IMG/VR virus record: IMGVR_UViG_3300021085_000206
Location: 1-24,548 of that record
Length of the DNA stretch: 24,548 nucleotides
Strand: one strand, 5' to 3'
DNA from: a virus
In this document: positions 3,043-15,688 of the stretch, one piece after another
Layout of the letters: each line of letters begins with the position of its first letter
Numbering within the stretch: position 1 is the stretch's first letter
Translations under genes and position numbers: made by a program
Notes under the pieces: generated by a model
Seen by the model: only the letters and a program-made list of their open reading frames with translations
Told to the model about the DNA's origin: nothing
Database searches by the model: none

Positions 3043-3209
3043 TACTCATCTCCTTTTGATTCATAATCTAAGTCCTCTTCCGAGGGTACGGTGTCTTCCC
3101 AGCTATATGTAAAACCAATATATAACCCTAATAGAGCTATAAGAGGTAAGAATGGCAACATAATTATCCACCCCAAGACGCTGTAAAACTTATCTTCTAT
3201 TGATTTCAT
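3042..3209 (-). CDS. Small single-helix membrane protein (55 aa)
   Basis: The ATG at 3209 overlaps the preceding stop (TAATG) and the stop at 3042 overlaps the next ATG (TAATG), so coupling on both sides supports it. About ten polar residues are followed by a hydrophobic segment at roughly 11-35 (with WIIMLPFLPLIALLGLYIG), then an acidic tail rich in Glu and Asp. By topology it should be an inner-membrane protein. No family recognised. Confidence 0.7.
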   Translation of the reverse strand: MKSIEDKFYSVLGWIIMLPFLPLIALLGLYIGFTYSWEDTVPSEEDLDYESKGDE

Positions 3210-3646
3210 TAGTAGTAACTCTTAACAGCTTTAACTGCTTCTTCAAGGCTGAAGTGGATCTCAGTTGCAATAGCCTGAGTGAAAGGATGAGGCTTATCAT
3301 CTTTATCACACCACAGGATAATGACCTTGTTCTTACAGTGGCCAAACATAATTTCCATATGGGTTCCAACAGCTCTACCAGCACAACGTCTAACATCTGC
3401 CAGAATAACTCTGGATGCAGCCACATCCTGTAAGTCTTGCTTAAAGATTCTCTTACAAGTGTTCATGTTACGTTGAACGTCCTCTAGGCACTCTTCTAGC
3501 TGATCATGGAATGATACTCGTCGAGTAGGGTCTAACATCTCAATCCCTGCCTCATTAAGCATCATCTCAGCTTCTCTGCGCCAACCTTTCATATGCTCTT
3601 CGCTAACAGCTTCCATACTGCCTGCTGCATATACATAGTCTTTCAT
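3209..3646 (-). CDS. Nucleoside 2-deoxyribosyltransferase-like enzyme (145 aa)
   Basis: Rossmann-like fold with the family signatures in order: YAAGSM near the N-terminus (substrate loop), KQDLQDVAASRVILADVR at residues 69-86 (Asp71, Asp74, Asp84), GTHMEIMFGH at 94-103 with Glu98 as the likely nucleophile, VIILWCD, HPF and a final helix. Known members move deoxyribose between bases or hydrolyse (deoxy)nucleosides and nucleotides. In a phage this would serve nucleotide salvage, or removal of unwanted nucleotides. The length matches the family. It starts in an ATGA overlap with the DUF1289 gene. The exact substrate cannot be told. Confidence 0.8.
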   Translation of the reverse strand: MKDYVYAAGSMEAVSEEHMKGWRREAEMMLNEAGIEMLDPTRRVSFHDQLEECLEDVQRNMNTCKRIFKQDLQDVAASRVILADVRRCAGRAVGTHMEIMFGHCKNKVIILWCDKDDKPHPFTQAIATEIHFSLEEAVKAVKSYY

Positions 3647-4796: not shown

Positions 4797-5276
4797 TTAG
4801 ACTTCCAGCAAAACTGACTCGAAACAGCTAGTCTTATCTTCAGGTATCGTCTTAGCCAACAGAAGGTTAAACTGTGTATTAATGTGACCGAGGTCAACCT
4901 CACTGTCCTTACTCTTAAGGAATAATGCCCACAAATCAGCGGGACCTATATCATAAACATTACTCTGAAGCTTATCAAACATACCTGCTTCTGTAAGAAC
5001 AGTCCTAATCTTCTCAAAGAAGTCATCATAGTTAATGTTACACTCAAAGGTGTTAACAATGTTATCAACCTTACAAGCTTCAAAGAGAGGCTTTAAGCGT
5101 TCGTCATCGTCATGTAACAGAGACTCATCCTGAAGAGCAGTAGCGTTATAGAACCTAACGCGGTCTTCCACATTACTACTAAGTTTACCTGTGTAGTAAA
5201 CATCCCTCTTAACTGTCATTAACAGCTTTCCACTCTTCAGAGCTTGAAGAGCAACTACTGAATCACCAATAGTCAT
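4797..5276 (-). CDS. Hypothetical protein (159 aa)
   Basis: Strong ribosome binding site (AGGAGG, 5 nt before the ATG at 5276). The product begins with a beta-like stretch (MTIGDSVVALQALKSGKLLMT) and continues with helices, including DDFFEKIRTVLTEAGMFDKL. It has no membrane span and no motif I recognise. It follows the 540-aa unknown gene by 9 nt, downstream of the MoxR/VWA genes, so the two may work with that module; this is only positional inference. Confidence 0.78.
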   Translation of the reverse strand: MTIGDSVVALQALKSGKLLMTVKRDVYYTGKLSSNVEDRVRFYNATALQDESLLHDDDERLKPLFEACKVDNIVNTFECNINYDDFFEKIRTVLTEAGMFDKLQSNVYDIGPADLWALFLKSKDSEVDLGHINTQFNLLLAKTIPEDKTSCFESVLLEV

Positions 5277-5285
5277 AACTACCTC

Positions 5286-6908
5286 CTAAAATATGTCAAG
5301 TGAATCGACGATTGAGTTACGAATCCTTCTGCGAATATTAGCTAAAGCTCGCTTAGGGGATGTACCAGAGACTAACTCCGTATAACCAGTGTCGCTAAGC
5401 CACTTAGCAACATAACGCTTTTCCTGCATAGCCACACTCTTATCGTAATGGAAGGTAGGATGGCTACGAGGGGGTAAACGATCTTTAAACAGTGTACTGC
5501 TAAATTGCATAACACATGGCTTATCAGTATCGATATCCCACTCACTATCAACCCGCTGAGAGGTAACCTCAAGAGAGTCATGCCAGCCAATACGGTATGT
5601 TGGGATATTATTATACGTCTCAACATGTTTAGCATAGTTATTACCTTCGACTTCTACCTTAAGGTTAATACCCGGAACAACTGAAGCACCTTGCTGAACT
5701 ACACTTAGGAAGTTAGTAGCCTTACCATTTTGGCAAGAGCGTGTTAATTGTGTAGGACCGCAGTTTGAGATACTGTACAAAGTAGAAGAACCTCGAGTGC
5801 TCCTGCCAATACCTCTAATGCCTTTGAGTCGAGACTTAACTGTGTTATCAACAGAGCTATTATTTTCCTCATCAAAGTCTGCATTTGTAAAGCAGGAATC
5901 GCTAATAAAACGATTCATATTATTGGAGTTACGGTAGTAGTCAGTAGTCACTTCATACAACTCAACATCTTCATCAGCAGCTTCTTTACTCTCAACTTGA
6001 CCATGTATATATGTTACAAGGCCTCGCTTACTGCTAACAACATTAGTTACAAGAGTAGTGTCAAAGACAGACTTAAGCTTCTCTAACTGACGTTTAGATG
6101 TCATGAAAGGGATAGAAGCATTATAGCCTTTAGCATCAGCATTATGGTAGAGCATAGCAGCAGGCTTTGGTGTAAAGCCATCAGGCAACACTACAACCTT
6201 ACCAGTATAGCCCCAGCCACGCTTACCGCCTTCAACCAGAGGGTGGAAGTCATCAGCATACCTAGCGCCATTACCCGGAAGGATATTATGCGCCGCTTCT
6301 TCTGTCTTAGCTCTGATAGACTGTATACTGCGATTACTCACATACTCTCGCTTACCTACTTCATGACATAACCTATGAATGCTGGTAACCATAGACCTGC
6401 AGTGTTTAAGCAGAAGAGTAGTAAACAAGTAACGAGTAATAATCTCGTAATTTGCCACAGCTTCTTCATCATAGTAACACATCGCTGTTCCTCTATCAAT
6501 ACCAACAGAGGCTAGTCCTGCGATAAGCTTGTCAGGGTCTAAAGACTTTGACGTAAGTCGATCAGCCAGAGCTGGACAAGAGGACACTATATGAGCCATA
6601 GTAGCTACATTAACACTACGATAATGCCTAGTCATTTCACGCTCATACACCGAGTTAACTTTTCGATACCACCCAGATATATTTATAAGGGAGTTATCGT
6701 ACCAAGCCTTTATAGTAGAATCGCTGGGACTATCACACTGCATCATATCAAACACAATATGATTAAAGTGGAGCTCATCGACTTTTTTCAGTTCCATATT
6801 ATGGTCTTCCTCAGCGACCTTACGGATTACTTTCAAATCACTCTTAAGACTGACTATACGTCGAAGCATAGCGTTGTACTCATTAGTGTGATAAAGTTTC
6901 TTATACAT
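5286..6908 (-). CDS. Large protein of unknown function (540 aa)
   Basis: I place the start at the ATG at 6908, where GAGG lies 6 nt upstream; an ATG at 6911 and an in-frame TTG at 6920 are alternatives. The gene overlaps the end of the VWA gene by 8 nt. The first ~210 residues look helical and charged. Around 215-300 the protein is Gly/Pro-rich (GKRGWGYTGKVVVLPDGFTPKP), followed by a region rich in Asn and Ser (300-440) and a basic, Arg-rich C-terminus ending IRNSIVDSLDIF. No catalytic signature, signal peptide or membrane span is evident. In MoxR/VWA systems a large partner or substrate is often encoded next door, so a client of that machine is possible but unproven. Confidence 0.85.
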   Translation of the reverse strand: MYKKLYHTNEYNAMLRRIVSLKSDLKVIRKVAEEDHNMELKKVDELHFNHIVFDMMQCDSPSDSTIKAWYDNSLINISGWYRKVNSVYEREMTRHYRSVNVATMAHIVSSCPALADRLTSKSLDPDKLIAGLASVGIDRGTAMCYYDEEAVANYEIITRYLFTTLLLKHCRSMVTSIHRLCHEVGKREYVSNRSIQSIRAKTEEAAHNILPGNGARYADDFHPLVEGGKRGWGYTGKVVVLPDGFTPKPAAMLYHNADAKGYNASIPFMTSKRQLEKLKSVFDTTLVTNVVSSKRGLVTYIHGQVESKEAADEDVELYEVTTDYYRNSNNMNRFISDSCFTNADFDEENNSSVDNTVKSRLKGIRGIGRSTRGSSTLYSISNCGPTQLTRSCQNGKATNFLSVVQQGASVVPGINLKVEVEGNNYAKHVETYNNIPTYRIGWHDSLEVTSQRVDSEWDIDTDKPCVMQFSSTLFKDRLPPRSHPTFHYDKSVAMQEKRYVAKWLSDTGYTELVSGTSPKRALANIRRRIRNSIVDSLDIF

Positions 6909-8067
6909 CATAAGCCTCAATCTCTATGTAGTTTCCAATTCCGGGGTCCATATCTTTGCTAACGGACACCCACGTAACTTCTCCAATAGTAGGTACACTA
7001 AGACTGTCAAAGTCAAGATACATGTCTGTTAGACAGACGATGGCTTGGACTTCCTCACCCTTCTCTTCAACATAGTCAAAGAATGGCTGAGGGTCAGTAC
7101 CTCCGTAGCCTGTACGACCTATCTCATCAAGAGAGTCGCCGGGCCCATAGGTTCTAACTTTACTAACCTTAGTATCACAGTCAATAACATGGACTGCTTT
7201 AGGTTTAACGTCTTCAACAATACCTTTAAGTTCAGCGCACATAGCTGCATTCTCTTTATCAGAGACTGAGCCACTGGTATCACGCCACACATAGATATTA
7301 CCTACTGATTTCTTTTCCACAGAAGGCATGTAGAAACCGTAATTAATAAGCTTACGGTTAGGTCTTCGATATGTGAAATCATCTGGGACCTCTCCTACTA
7401 CTGCTCGTCTGAACAGTTCCTTCCAGTCTATCTTAGGGTTACGGATGTTATCAAGGACTGAAGAATACTCGCCGGGTAACTTACCCATTGACTTTGCGGT
7501 CTCCGCCGCTGCTAGAATCTTACGCTTAGAGCGCTCTTCTAATTCTTTTAATTCCCCCTCTGACATAAACTTATCATTACCTTTATCACCATCTTGCCCC
7601 GGCGATAAGATATGATTATCAGTGTCCTTGGGAACATCGTCATCGTCTAAGTCGTTATATATCTTCTCAGACGCCCATCCTTCATACTTCTCATCATACA
7701 GAGTTTCCTCAATAGACTCTAACACGCCATCCTGTAGTAGACCTGCCAGAGTAGTAGTGTTGATACTCAGATCACAAGCATAATTCCACTTCATAGGGTT
7801 ACGCTTACCCATGCGGAAACAGTGTAGCATAGCTATGTGGTCAGCCTCGTGGAACAGAAGCCAACACAGTTGAGGTAATCTAAGACTACGAACAAATGAT
7901 TCGTTGTAGTAGATGTTCTTACCATCAGTAGCACCCGTGGGTAAATCGTCCCGCTGAATGCACTCAGATTGTGATACTATAGAGCCATGGAAAGGCGCTG
8001 ATAACATCATCTTTACTTTTGCCTTAGCCAACCACTTATCAGTTGACACATTGTCAGGGCATGACAT
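6901..8067 (-). CDS. Zincin-like peptidase domain plus VWA domain protein (388 aa)
   Basis: Two-domain protein of the DUF2201 type. The N-terminal half carries a zinc-peptidase signature, HEADH at residues 73-77, followed by a helix and ACDLSIN, where Asp99 may be a third ligand. An acidic, low-complexity linker (about 138-175) leads to a von Willebrand factor A domain with an intact metal-ion-dependent adhesion site: DTSGS (263-267), Thr324 in GGTD, and Asp348 in CLTDMY. Such proteins pair with MoxR AAA+ ATPases, and one is encoded two genes upstream. Known MoxR/VWA pairs insert metals or remodel proteins; the target here is unknown. It is not clear that the peptidase is active. Confidence 0.88.
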   Translation of the reverse strand: MSCPDNVSTDKWLAKAKVKMMLSAPFHGSIVSQSECIQRDDLPTGATDGKNIYYNESFVRSLRLPQLCWLLFHEADHIAMLHCFRMGKRNPMKWNYACDLSINTTTLAGLLQDGVLESIEETLYDEKYEGWASEKIYNDLDDDDVPKDTDNHILSPGQDGDKGNDKFMSEGELKELEERSKRKILAAAETAKSMGKLPGEYSSVLDNIRNPKIDWKELFRRAVVGEVPDDFTYRRPNRKLINYGFYMPSVEKKSVGNIYVWRDTSGSVSDKENAAMCAELKGIVEDVKPKAVHVIDCDTKVSKVRTYGPGDSLDEIGRTGYGGTDPQPFFDYVEEKGEEVQAIVCLTDMYLDFDSLSVPTIGEVTWVSVSKDMDPGIGNYIEIEAYDV

Positions 8068-8068
8068 A

Positions 8069-8389
8069 CTACTCTCCCATCTCTACAGGTAATAACATAA
8101 ACCTGCTTGTTTGTTTAGGAGCGCCAAGTAACTGTTTAGCGGCTAACTCCGACGTGATATCCTCTAGAGTGATATCGTGATTATACATAAGTGTCGAGAT
8201 AGCCTCCACTATCTCTTCCTTGTCTTCAGAAACTATAACTGTTTTGAGCATATGATCTTCCTCAATCTCTACATAGCCCTCCATTTCAAACTCCTTATCT
8301 ATAAGTGTGTTCAGCATTACATCAGCCGCCTTCCTAGAAAAGCGACTGGAGTTCTCATAACGTAAATATGCGATATGACTGCTACTCAT
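8069..8389 (-). CDS. Small protein between the MoxR and VWA genes (106 aa)
   Basis: The start at 8389 forms an ATGA overlap with the end of the ATPase gene; an in-frame ATG 11 codons earlier would overlap it by 37 nt. The product begins MSSSHIAYLRYENSSRFS, has two helical segments and a strand with HMLKTVIVSEDKEEIV, and ends with a hydrophobic FMLLPVE motif. No family recognised. Its position and coupling suggest it belongs to the MoxR/VWA complex, perhaps as an adaptor. Confidence 0.75.
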   Translation of the reverse strand: MSSSHIAYLRYENSSRFSRKAADVMLNTLIDKEFEMEGYVEIEEDHMLKTVIVSEDKEEIVEAISTLMYNHDITLEDITSELAAKQLLGAPKQTSRFMLLPVEMGE

Positions 8390-9441
8390 AATACTAATTC
8401 TTTGCCACTTACTTGGAGCCACTTCTTAAGTTCTTTAGTCTTAAGCAGAGGAGACTCTTTAGCACCTGTACGCATCAGAGCATCTTTAACCAGAAAAGCA
8501 ATCTGGTCTTGATACTTAAGGCGGTCTGAGTACTTCAGAATCTTACCAATGTTACTCTCATTAGCTCGCGATGCCAGAGCAGCACACAAGATATAAGAGA
8601 CATTGACATCTTCAGGCAAGTCTGCACCTTCAGGGTTAGCAATAACGTCTGCTGGGTCAATCATCTTGTCATGTAGCTCAAGGTGAGTAACAAAGTCGTT
8701 AGCGGCACCTGCACCCACAGTAGATGTAATACAGTGGTTAAGAGCAGAGTTAGTCATAGAGCCCTTCTCTTGCATACCTAATAGAGTGTTAACCCGTAAC
8801 CACGAACGTGGGGAGGGGCAAGCGTCTCTGGCAACATCAAACTCAGCAAGGCGCTGAGGGAACACTCGAAGGAACGAGGTTAGCTTTGGATTAGCTTGAA
8901 CCGTGTTAAAGTAGTTAATGGCATCATCAAGACTGGCATCTACTTCAATAGGCATCAGACGGTCACGCAGATGTGTTGGTATCTGGTTAGTGCCTGCCCT
9001 ATTAGACATTCGGTTATTAGCTACAACTACAGTCCATCCTTCACCTAAGATATGCTCACCCACACGATGCTCGTTAACTAACTGAGCAGCAATGTTAAGG
9101 TTAGCCATAGGTGCTTGAGAGATCTCGTCCAGAAACAACAGACCCTTACCTTCGGTAGGGAGCCAATCAGGTCGAGCACGAGAGTACTGCTTATTACCGT
9201 TGTTCTCGTCAAGATAGGGCATACCGCCTAGCTCGCCACTATCGTACTGAGCAAGGATAACAGTGCGACATTCGATGTCCAGTTCTTCAGCAGCCTGCTC
9301 AACAATAGCAGTCTTACCGATACCGGGGTCACCAACAAGCTGAGGAACCATCAGTTGACCGATCTTGGTTCCTTCCGCTTTAGCATCAATGTTATGCTCA
9401 ACAATGGCTTTAACGATCTCTTTAGCTTGTGAAATGTTCAT
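8386..9441 (-). CDS. MoxR-family AAA+ ATPase (351 aa)
   Basis: AAA+ ATPase with Walker A GDPGIGKT (37-44), Walker B LLFLDEI (101-107), a sensor-1 Asn in VVANN (about 142) and Arg159/Arg161 in HLRDRL as arginine-finger candidates. The insert with GELGGMPY and the SRARPDWLP stretch are typical of MoxR relatives rather than of clamp loaders or helicases. MoxR ATPases act as hexamers that remodel a partner held by a VWA protein; that partner is encoded at 6901-8067 in the same operon. The start has AGGAG 8 nt upstream. CobS-like metal chelation is an alternative reading, with no specific support. Confidence 0.9.
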   Translation of the reverse strand: MNISQAKEIVKAIVEHNIDAKAEGTKIGQLMVPQLVGDPGIGKTAIVEQAAEELDIECRTVILAQYDSGELGGMPYLDENNGNKQYSRARPDWLPTEGKGLLFLDEISQAPMANLNIAAQLVNEHRVGEHILGEGWTVVVANNRMSNRAGTNQIPTHLRDRLMPIEVDASLDDAINYFNTVQANPKLTSFLRVFPQRLAEFDVARDACPSPRSWLRVNTLLGMQEKGSMTNSALNHCITSTVGAGAANDFVTHLELHDKMIDPADVIANPEGADLPEDVNVSYILCAALASRANESNIGKILKYSDRLKYQDQIAFLVKDALMRTGAKESPLLKTKELKKWLQVSGKELVL

Positions 9442-9465: not shown

Positions 9466-9987
9466 TTAAGCCCACTCTTCGCGGTATTCTTCCATACGAG
9501 ATTCGATATCAAAACAGTTATCAAGTGCTGCAGGAATATCGTCAGCTTCAGTTATATCATCTGTCGAGTAACCTTCAAGCTCTTCACTGTCAAAGATACC
9601 GGCAAAACCCATACCTTCTTCAAGATAGAAGATCTTAACCCTGATATCCAGAGTCTCAGCAAGGTTATCAAAGATAGCAATAGGTGGTGACCACGCTGTT
9701 TCAAACGAAGCTTCCCACTTACCATCTTCTTCGTAAGGCTCATAACCTTCATAAGGAACATCAGTAACATCCCACTTAGTCCCATAGTTCTCTATATTAT
9801 TAGAGTACCAATTACTATCATCCTCACCAACAAGTTTGTTAGTGACTTGTTCTTCAACAGGGGTAATGTAGTCCAGAATAGTTCTGAACAAACCTTCCTC
9901 ATGTTGCTCTTCAAGAGCCTCCGCAAGCTTATCCATGACCTTACGAGGGCCCGTTACTTCTACGTAATTTTCACACCAATTTGGCAT
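9466..9987 (-). CDS. Api92-like ferredoxin-fold phage protein (173 aa)
   Basis: Begins MPNWCENYVEVTG, the signature of a very common phage and mobile-element family (DUF1281/Api92-like, ferredoxin-like fold), and carries the conserved internal pattern with W/F-rich FETAWSPPIAIFDNLAE near residues 94-110. The C-terminus is acidic. Function is not established. GGAG lies 8 nt before the ATG. Confidence 0.85.
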   Translation of the reverse strand: MPNWCENYVEVTGPRKVMDKLAEALEEQHEEGLFRTILDYITPVEEQVTNKLVGEDDSNWYSNNIENYGTKWDVTDVPYEGYEPYEEDGKWEASFETAWSPPIAIFDNLAETLDIRVKIFYLEEGMGFAGIFDSEELEGYSTDDITEADDIPAALDNCFDIESRMEEYREEWA

Positions 9988-10170: not shown

Positions 10171-10431
10171 TTAAGAGCCACGTCTGGTGCCAGCGCAAGC
10201 ATTCCAAACAGTTACAACACATTCAGGGTTAGGTGAAGGTGTAGGTGTAGGGGTGGGAGTGGGTGTAGGGGTGAAAGCAGGAGTAGATGACTCCACCTTC
10301 TTCACAATACAAACATCTCCTGTAAAACCCGCTGCTCTACAAGAAGCGGCATCATTAACGTACAGAGTGTATTCCTCTGCGGATGCAACAGCTGGTAGTA
10401 GTAAAACACAAGCTAATATAACAGCTTTCAT
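10171..10431 (-). CDS. Exported small protein with Pro-Thr repeat (86 aa)
   Basis: I chose the ATG at 10431, which starts a clean signal peptide: MKAVILACVLLLPAVASA, then Glu, with an A-S-A cleavage site near residue 18. The in-frame starts upstream overlap the previous gene and would bury the signal. The mature part has Cys..Cys in SCRAAGFTGDVC, a run of Thr-Pro dipeptides encoded by 6-bp repeats (about 10232-10273), then two more Cys in ECVVTVWNAC. Four cysteines suggest two disulfides in the periplasm. Phages encode such exported proteins for superinfection exclusion or lysis control, but no family is recognised. Confidence 0.75.
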   Translation of the reverse strand: MKAVILACVLLLPAVASAEEYTLYVNDAASCRAAGFTGDVCIVKKVESSTPAFTPTPTPTPTPTPSPNPECVVTVWNACAGTRRGS

Positions 10432-10432
10432 A

Positions 10433-10681
10433 TCAGTGCTTCCTTTGATCATCGTCCTTAAGACCTTCAAGTGCAAACATGAACTTATTAAATGCACTCT
10501 CCATTTCTTTCTTGTTCTCTTCCTGTTGCTTCTTCTTAGTGCCTAACTCGTAAGCTGACTTAAGAATAGCCCAACCAAAGAACATAACGCATAGCCAACC
10601 ATAAGATATACCTTCGATAAGACCGGCCATATCCAATAGGACAGCGCCAGCACAAAAGGCCACTACAAAGTTAGTAAACAT
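10433..10681 (-). CDS. Small membrane protein with charged tail (82 aa)
   Basis: Two hydrophobic segments, roughly residues 3-22 (VVAFCAGAVLLDMAGL) and 26-44 (SYGWLCVMFFGWAILKSA), are followed by a Lys/Glu-rich helix that may form a coiled coil, and a basic-acidic end. AAGGAG precedes the ATG. It ends 1 nt before the exported-protein ATG, so the two form a unit between two hairpins. Holin-like topology is conceivable, but two short spans and position among metabolic genes are not enough to call it. Confidence 0.75.
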   Translation of the reverse strand: MFTNFVVAFCAGAVLLDMAGLIEGISYGWLCVMFFGWAILKSAYELGTKKKQQEENKKEMESAFNKFMFALEGLKDDDQRKH

Positions 10682-14290: not shown

Positions 14291-15688
14291 TTAGTGAAAT
14301 CCTATAGTTCGTTTAGTTAACTCCTTAAGCTCCGGAGTGGTTGCAATCTTAAGCTTAACCTCATCTCTCAGCATCTCAACTACACGTTCAAAGGTTGGTA
14401 GCTCAGGCTCATACAATGAACGCTCCTTAACAACCTTAAAGTCACCTGTAGTCAATAGCTCAATATGCGGTATACGCTTATTTCTGAATCTGCTTTTGAA
14501 GAACTTTTTAAACGCTAACTTTTGTTGGTCATGCGTTAAGAAAGAGAACTCCATCTTCAGGTAGAATCGGCGTATCACTGCAGGGTCAAGAGACTTAATA
14601 AAGTTAGTAGTACAGATAACAATACCTTCAAACTCATCTAGACTAGTGAGTAGTTGGTTAGTCATAGTTCTACTATACTCTTTGGTAGAGGTAGCTCGGT
14701 TCATAGCAAGAGAGTCAATCTCATCCAACAATAGGATAGACTTACCTCCCTGTGCTTCTCGAAAGATCTGTGCTAACTTCTTCTCACCTTCACCAATATA
14801 CTTATCTTGTATATCAGCGTAGGATCGCTTAATTAGCCGCAAGTCCATCTCAGAAGCAATATGCTCTGCTAGTGCAGTCTTAGAAGTGCCGGGAGCACCG
14901 TGGAATAAACAAGTAATAGATGTAGGTTGCTCACTCCTTGGCTTTAGCAGTATGCCTTCCAGCCTCTCCAGAAACATCTCTGCAGTTGGCTTAGTGTTAA
15001 CCAGACCCTCCTCGAAAGCAATCTCGTTATTACGAGTTCCTCTCTTAGTGTTAGGGTTAACCTTAAGGCCTTTACCATAGTTGATGCTCTTAGGCTTCTT
15101 GTGCTGTGCCTCAGCCTCTTCCTCTACAATAAGTTCAACCTGAGTTAAACCAATGTAGATAGTAGTGATCTCATCTTTAGTCAGAGATACAGGAGAGACT
15201 TTCAGACTAACACCGGAGATTTCTTTAGACAGATTGGCTTTGCACCACTCACCTACAGCATATTCTTTATCTGTAGTGCCTCTTGAAACCTCCTGATCAG
15301 AGCCAGCTGAACCAAGCATAGCAGCAAAAGCATGTTCAAAGTCATCACCACTCTCTTCACCCGGGGGTGTAGTGGAAATACCTTCAAGCTCTCTTTTGTA
15401 AGCCGCTAGCTCATGACCTAACCAATACCTAAAGGCATCTTTTCTTACTGCAGGTTCAGCAATGTTTTCACTTATCATAGAGACTATATTCTCTCTAACG
15501 TCATAACGACCGTATGATATCTGCTTATTGGCTTTACGCTTAACAAGCCTATGGGTATCCAAGCACGCTTCGTAGACACATGGTCTCTTAACAAAGTGGC
15601 ATTGGAGATTATCCCTGCTTAGGAAGGCTTTCACTTCTTGAGTTATAGCCTGCGTTTCTTCAGCGGACAATACATCGGTTTTTTTCAT
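14291..15688 (-). CDS. AAA+ ATPase with unknown N-terminal domain (465 aa)
   Basis: The C-terminal half is a classic AAA module: GAPGTSKT (264-271), pore-loop-like YIGEGEKKL (297-305), Walker B SILLLDEID (317-325), sensor-1 region ICTTN (358-362) and arginine candidates Arg373/Arg374. The Walker A has Ser where the usual GxxGxGKT has Gly before Lys. The 230-residue N-terminal part is unrecognised and may bind the substrate. The pore loop and Arg fingers indicate a hexameric unfoldase- or remodelling-type ATPase (p97/FtsH-like class) rather than a helicase. The role in infection is not known. Confidence 0.85.
   Translation of the reverse strand: MKKTDVLSAEETQAITQEVKAFLSRDNLQCHFVKRPCVYEACLDTHRLVKRKANKQISYGRYDVRENIVSMISENIAEPAVRKDAFRYWLGHELAAYKRELEGISTTPPGEESGDDFEHAFAAMLGSAGSDQEVSRGTTDKEYAVGEWCKANLSKEISGVSLKVSPVSLTKDEITTIYIGLTQVELIVEEEAEAQHKKPKSINYGKGLKVNPNTKRGTRNNEIAFEEGLVNTKPTAEMFLERLEGILLKPRSEQPTSITCLFHGAPGTSKTALAEHIASEMDLRLIKRSYADIQDKYIGEGEKKLAQIFREAQGGKSILLLDEIDSLAMNRATSTKEYSRTMTNQLLTSLDEFEGIVICTTNFIKSLDPAVIRRFYLKMEFSFLTHDQQKLAFKKFFKSRFRNKRIPHIELLTTGDFKVVKERSLYEPELPTFERVVEMLRDEVKLKIATTPELKELTKRTIGFH

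Follow-up and report, generated by a model that had tools for sequence, protein, structure and literature searches.

A candidate three-gene phage module: a MoxR ATPase, a zincin/VWA protein and a fast-changing partner with a conserved tail

In a run of five phage genes we recognize a putative conserved core of three, encoding a MoxR ATPase, a zincin/VWA co-chaperone and a third protein, here named T3, and we consider the chances about even that the three form a module in which T3 is the dedicated client or a client-bearing adaptor. The MoxR/VWA pair in phages is known and widespread; the third gene is the new part.

The five-gene run and its MoxR/VWA pair

The module comes from a complete 24,548-bp IMG/VR virus record (IMGVR_UViG_3300021085_000206), a fragment of a T7-like phage, which was analysed at full length and is called the window below. 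The module is flanked on its right, in the same orientation, by genes for a single-subunit RNA polymerase, a family A DNA polymerase, a gp2.5-like protein, a primase-helicase, an exonuclease and a ribonucleotide reductase; no rubisco-like protein is named in the window. All five open reading frames of the run were verified on the minus strand, in the order MoxR AAA+ ATPase, 106-aa protein, DUF2201 zincin/VWA protein, 540-aa protein and 159-aa protein:

8386..9441, minus: MoxR-type AAA+ ATPase, 351 aa (phrog_1297, E 1.4e-67)
9310..9333, minus: MoxR Walker A, GDPGIGKT, residues 37-44; G40, G42 and K43 kept in all MoxR proteins of the alignment (62/62)
9124..9138, minus: MoxR Walker B, LFLDE, residues 102-106; D105 in 60/62, E106 in 62/62
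8069..8389, minus: 106-aa protein between MoxR and VWA; ATG at 8389, frame open from GTG 8422; homologue in sibling contig L002 only, 46% identical
6901..8067, minus: 388-aa DUF2201 protein with a zincin-like metallopeptidase domain and a VWA domain (PF13203, E 1.2e-39; PF09967, E 8.7e-16)
7837..7851, minus: HEADH zinc motif, residues 73-77; H/E/H in 71/72 relatives
7267..7281, minus: MIDAS motif DTSGS, residues 263-267, completed by T324 and D348
5286..6908, minus: 540-aa partner protein, very probably a T3, from its slot, its tail, a profile-profile match (P 1.9e-4) and a VWA neighbour in the T3 clade; frame open from TTG 6920, giving 544 aa
5937..6095, minus: candidate T3 middle box, a helix and strands at residues 276-328 of the 544-aa frame; modelled order matches that of the T3 of locus L117
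5289..5429, minus: candidate T3 C-terminal module, a hairpin followed by the helix GTSPKRALANIRRRIRNSIVDSLDIF, residues 498-544; invariant Arg R532, 12 residues from the end
4797..5276, minus: 159-aa protein; homologue in L002 only, 49% identical

The initial annotation had described a single leftward run with junctions of 4-9 nt. The run stands, and the spacing was about right, the measured junctions spanning 1-9 nt: a 4-nt overlap between MoxR and the 106-aa gene, a 1-nt gap between the latter and VWA, an 8-nt overlap between VWA and the 540-aa gene (ATG 6908; the start in L002 likewise overlaps) and a 9-nt gap between the 540-aa and 159-aa genes. Shine-Dalgarno-like sequences precede the MoxR, VWA and 159-aa genes. 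Because L002 repeats the five-gene order, with identities to the window of 93% for MoxR, 77% for VWA, about 38-41% for the 540-aa protein and the lower values listed above for the two small proteins, the run is not due to chance. As one unit, the five genes were rejected, since the 106-aa and 159-aa genes are found in this sibling only; sequence comparison places both as lineage-specific genes outside the conserved core, and numerous phages have the pair with no detectable T3. None of the five window proteins, nor the L117 T3, matched a PADLOC defence model at E 0.01, and the bpMoxR model reached E 0.0026 at best when the window proteins were searched with Pfam.

Both members of the pair look active. 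The ATPase belongs by phrog_1297 to the MoxR AAA+ proteins, while Pfam AAA models match it at E 1.8e-4 to 0.027 only, and it carries Walker A and B, both sensors and the arginine finger: across 62 aligned proteins, residue 44 of Walker A varies between T (40) and S (22), sensor-1 N143 and sensor-2 R212 are present in 62/62 and the finger R161 in 61/62, so that its catalytic residues are kept in 60-62 of 62. A MoxR-seeded scan for intermediates returned L002, L184 and a few further MoxR loci. In the VWA protein, PF13203 (DUF2201_N) holds the HExxH-type zinc site and PF09967 (DUF2201) the VWA domain with its MIDAS; the protein also matches phrog_1314 (E 7e-90), whose HNH endonuclease label finds no support, since the protein matches the DUF2201 metallopeptidase/VWA family. 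Beyond HEADH, H82 is kept in 71/72 relatives and D99 and N103 in 72/72, and among the same number of non-redundant VWA proteins the MIDAS D, S, S and T are kept in 72/72 and D348 in 71/72. The earlier reading that both active sites are intact (in the VWA protein HEADH; DTSGS, T and D) is thus upheld, and degeneration of the sites in relatives, which would have spoken against it, is not seen, because the zincin triad (71/72), the MIDAS (71-72/72) and the MoxR residues (60-62/62) persist across them.

Relatives of the VWA protein occur in 635 of 50,697 phage records, among them N4-like phages such as G7C, where the proteins are annotated as similar to N4 gp24 and gp25. The MoxR/metallopeptidase-vWA pair was described in jumbo phages by Iyer et al. 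2021, who proposed a role in virion assembly (PMC7824862). The publications consulted on the phage pair name no client and do not describe T3; the available portion of the text of the paper on Roseobacter phage CRP-7 does not mention ATPases, and T3 has no published name to search by.

T3, a variable body on a fixed tail

The genes that follow VWA in distant phages have unlike bodies and similar ends. Using iterative profiles we assembled them into a family, T3, to which the first 184 loci contribute ~75 distinct sequences and which is carried by many uncultured phages and by the cultured phage CRP-7. When 40 members were scanned, any one Pfam or PHROG family matched at most one of them, at E 0.003-0.006 only.

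T3-only scans of the viral collection, seeded by three closer sub-alignments, recovered 69 assessable loci, and without exception (69/69) VWA is found on the T3 strand no more than 2.5 kb upstream; the 11 remaining contigs are not assessable, as their upstream sequence stops within 1.6 kb of T3. MoxR is present in 57 of the T3-seeded loci, and no locus whose upstream sequence exceeds 5.5 kb lacks it; the order MoxR-VWA-T3 on a single strand holds in 137/137 loci with all three genes, and after clustering at 40% VWA accompanies T3 in 11/11 groups. These counts, like the identities below, rest on pattern-based scans and on phages related to one another. For the family of the 540-aa gene, then, frequent occurrence apart from the pair, on which the initial annotation would have fallen, is not what we find. 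One pattern-based, non-exhaustive scan of bacterial genomes with T3 found no relative. A search of 12 whole records found a single T3 in each, and the profile therefore does not find the module repeated.

The association runs one way. Of the 72 non-redundant VWA loci, 24 extend at least 3.5 kb downstream and yet give no T3 by profile; among these 24 are the window, L002 and the L008 group, each with a divergent candidate gene. L053 seems to lack T3, and the 225-aa gene after VWA in L063 may be a still more divergent member.

Conservation along T3 is uneven. Over 1686 non-independent pairs, mean identity is 70% for VWA, 72% for MoxR and 39% for T3, within which the last 25 residues average 63% and the protein minus its last 100 residues 32%. 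A single arginine is shared by all distinct tails (58/58) and stands 9-13 residues before the C-terminus, the distance being 11 or 12 in 49 of them; these tails sit on complete proteins of 238-544 aa. The tail is basic; the conserved columns are this arginine and a near-invariant tryptophan, with no invariant catalytic-type residue among them. For the L117 T3 we obtained a good model (pLDDT 89.7, pTM 0.60; structure-model alignments left out the CRP-7 row), in which helices lead into a sheet and then a C-terminal helix. T3 had no sequence match among solved structures, and in fold comparison the best PDB match (E 0.094) fell short of significance and Z values stayed below 8.

The 540-aa protein of the window as a divergent T3

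The initial annotation placed the 540-aa gene in an unrecognized family. Neither it nor the 159-aa protein has a significant Pfam, PHROG or NCBIfam match, the 540-aa protein has 0 matches in 50,697 phage records, and a scan of the viral collection with it alone as query gave none; yet we find it weakly tied to T3, a family defined here, and conclude that it is very probably a member. It lies downstream of VWA on the same strand and ends in a hairpin and helix bearing the invariant arginine. A T3 profile built without it ranks it first among the window's 72 open reading frames (E 0.019), with whole-protein profiles giving E 0.019-0.28; in the 184-locus set, the only non-member reading frames with E below 5 are those of L002, L008-L010 and the window, all in the expected slot. 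Scored against a profile built without it, the window tail exceeds 2000/2000 shuffles, as does that of L002, and profile-profile alignment with hhalign gives P 1.9e-4 at a probability of 47% over 56 residues. A six-frame search with that T3 profile had no match in the window record and reached E 9e-4 in sibling L002. In the VWA tree the window falls in a clade with support 98/99, in which 37/40 rows are T3-bearing when the window, L002 and the L008 group are counted as T3.

Between window and sibling, the last 25 residues are 96% identical, the protein without its last 100 residues 36%. The family's middle box, W-x3-V followed by strands, keeps its V and not its W in the window, and its strand order agrees in a model built with T3 rows. 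Although that model is poor overall (pLDDT 50.7), residues ~301-330 (about 80-92) and ~501-540 (about 80-94) show the same order of elements as the L117 model, separated by a low-confidence stretch of ~170 residues; it is not independent support, because T3 rows stood in its alignment.

Membership thus leans on ~50 C-terminal residues, the slot and the VWA clade, and the sequence resemblance is weak. The confinement of that resemblance to the C-terminus and the poor overall model would suit an unrelated, lineage-specific gene that chances to follow VWA; we regard this as improbable, given the shared slot, tail length and arginine, the shuffles (0/2000) and the position of its VWA within the T3 clade. 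As best explanation we take the gene for a T3 that has diverged and contains a long insertion.

Proposed mechanism and comparison with known systems

From what the loci display directly, namely the order and joint occurrence of the genes, a pair whose active sites are intact, and variable bodies that share a fixed tail, we infer how the trio might work. The MoxR ring and the VWA protein would bind T3 through its conserved C-terminal helix, and MoxR would use the energy of ATP to exert a pull on T3 or to remodel it. The zinc site, being intact, hints at cleavage, in which case the zincin domain may clip T3 or its cargo. The fast-changing N-terminal part of T3 would be the side turned to the actual target, probably a host factor encountered early in infection. 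The tail helix could instead be a mere part of the fold core. Of the original proposal of a MoxR/VWA machine with a dedicated target, an active-looking machine with a dedicated partner, T3, is retained, and the five-gene set as its carrier is given up.

The same observations lend themselves, more tentatively, to a reading of T3 as a swappable adaptor, its variable N-terminal part recruiting a host protein and its tail delivering that protein to the MoxR unfoldase and the zincin/VWA protease for destruction. A variable body on a fixed tail, an intact zinc site, a setting among early or replication genes and the lack of an invariant catalytic-type residue in T3 all favour it; however, rapid change could reflect relaxed constraint, and MoxR proteins are usually chaperones rather than degradation motors. 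A fuller version, which we hold equally tentatively, is a targeted protein remodelling or degradation machine of three genes, with MoxR as motor, the DUF2201 protein as zinc protease and MIDAS clamp, and T3 as an interchangeable recruiter that diversifies against host proteins while its docking tail stays fixed.

More doubtful is a role for the trio in virion assembly, with T3 a structural or scaffold client undergoing processing. It has behind it the proposal of Iyer et al. 2021 and the precedent of a two-tailed archaeal virus cited there (PMC7824862). Against this, the modules of the window, CRP-7, L110, L142, L164 and L181 are surrounded by early or replication genes rather than by structural ones, which weakens the assembly idea for T3-type modules. 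Least probable of all is that T3 is a nucleic-acid-binding protein loaded or removed by MoxR/VWA, its C-terminal strands and basic helix being similar to the second half of a dsRNA-binding domain. Model residues 186-249 do align with a Dicer-like chain and with several double-stranded-RNA-binding regions of RNase III (Z 4.1-5.0), but Z values below 8 are frequent by chance and the PDB comparison was not significant.

On our preferred reading, T3 as client or client-bearing adaptor, a widespread phage pair would gain a definite partner open to experiment, one that ends in a short conserved tail and is present also in the cultured phage CRP-7, and the role of the pair in phages is now addressable by binding and mutation experiments.

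Among known systems, the phage pair itself (jumbo phages, PMC7824862; N4 gp24/gp25; phrog_1297 with phrog_1314) shares with the window both proteins, their domains and their intact motifs; its probable T3 sets the window apart, the whole records of N4, G7C, Pollock, SBP1, Vibrio 1.097.O, Cassandra, navn and phage G yielding none. Bacterial MoxR-vWA ternary systems (VMAP, iSTAND and others; PMC7159879) likewise combine MoxR, vWA and a fast-changing third protein in each operon. The trio differs from them in occurring in phages and in showing no effector domains, and T3 is not recognizably their third protein by Pfam, no VMAP/iSTAND-type family having been found in 40 T3 members with a library that may lack some models. 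Midasin/Rea1 supplies the solved AAA+ modules closest by sequence to the window's MoxR, and Rea1 removes its client through a MIDAS (PMC4660213); unlike the trio, it is a single giant fused protein acting on pre-ribosomes. CbbQ/CbbO, which we use as a mechanistic analogue only, also pairs a MoxR ring with a VWA/MIDAS partner, although CbbO has no reported zincin domain and its client is rubisco, which T3 is not. There the MIDAS contacts an acidic surface residue, and the exact C-terminus of rubisco is required, one added alanine abolishing the effect (PMC4660213); in NorQD the MIDAS is used on the target, not on NorQ (PMC9976466). By analogy, the fixed tail of T3, whose binding we propose, fits this CbbQO/NorQD pattern of client recognition.

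Genes adjoining T3 or VWA on the downstream side

In many loci of the viral collection, T3, the partner protein family encoded downstream of VWA, is followed immediately by a small protein of 68-93 aa:

L018:8020-8247, small post-T3 protein
L054:4226-4465, small post-T3 protein
L024:7943-8224, small post-T3 protein

This family, which recurs in relatives of these three loci and of which none was seen in the window, is a possible fourth component of the module. L063, which in the VWA tree falls on the branch closest to the window, has this gene after VWA:

L063:7158-7835, 225-aa gene that overlaps the end of the VWA gene

Its product, from whose end the invariant Arg is absent, is possibly a further diverged T3.

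Other genes in the window and in L181

Window 9466-9987, 173-aa DUF1281_C (Api92-like ferredoxin-like) protein, just upstream of MoxR
Window 10171-10497, minus strand, short (PT)n-repeat protein whose N-terminus is signal-like
Window 14291-15688, 465-aa AAA+ ATPase (phrog_10401)
Window 3209-3646, nucleoside 2-deoxyribosyltransferase-like protein (weak match)
L181:8881-9318, nucleoside 2-deoxyribosyltransferase-like protein (weak match)

The DUF1281_C protein has relatives at L128, L139, L033, L234 and L235. The 465-aa protein is a second AAA+ ATPase, separate from the MoxR gene and flanked by replication genes. The deoxyribosyltransferase-like genes lie close to the module in both phages.

The HNH label

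The metallopeptidase/VWA gene (window 6901-8067) belongs to phrog_1314, a family labelled 'HNH endonuclease', and is so annotated in many RefSeq phage records. Genuine HNH genes frequently lie between MoxR and VWA, as in phages G7C (gp24.1) and SBP1 (SBP1_gp030), and may be the source of the wrong label.
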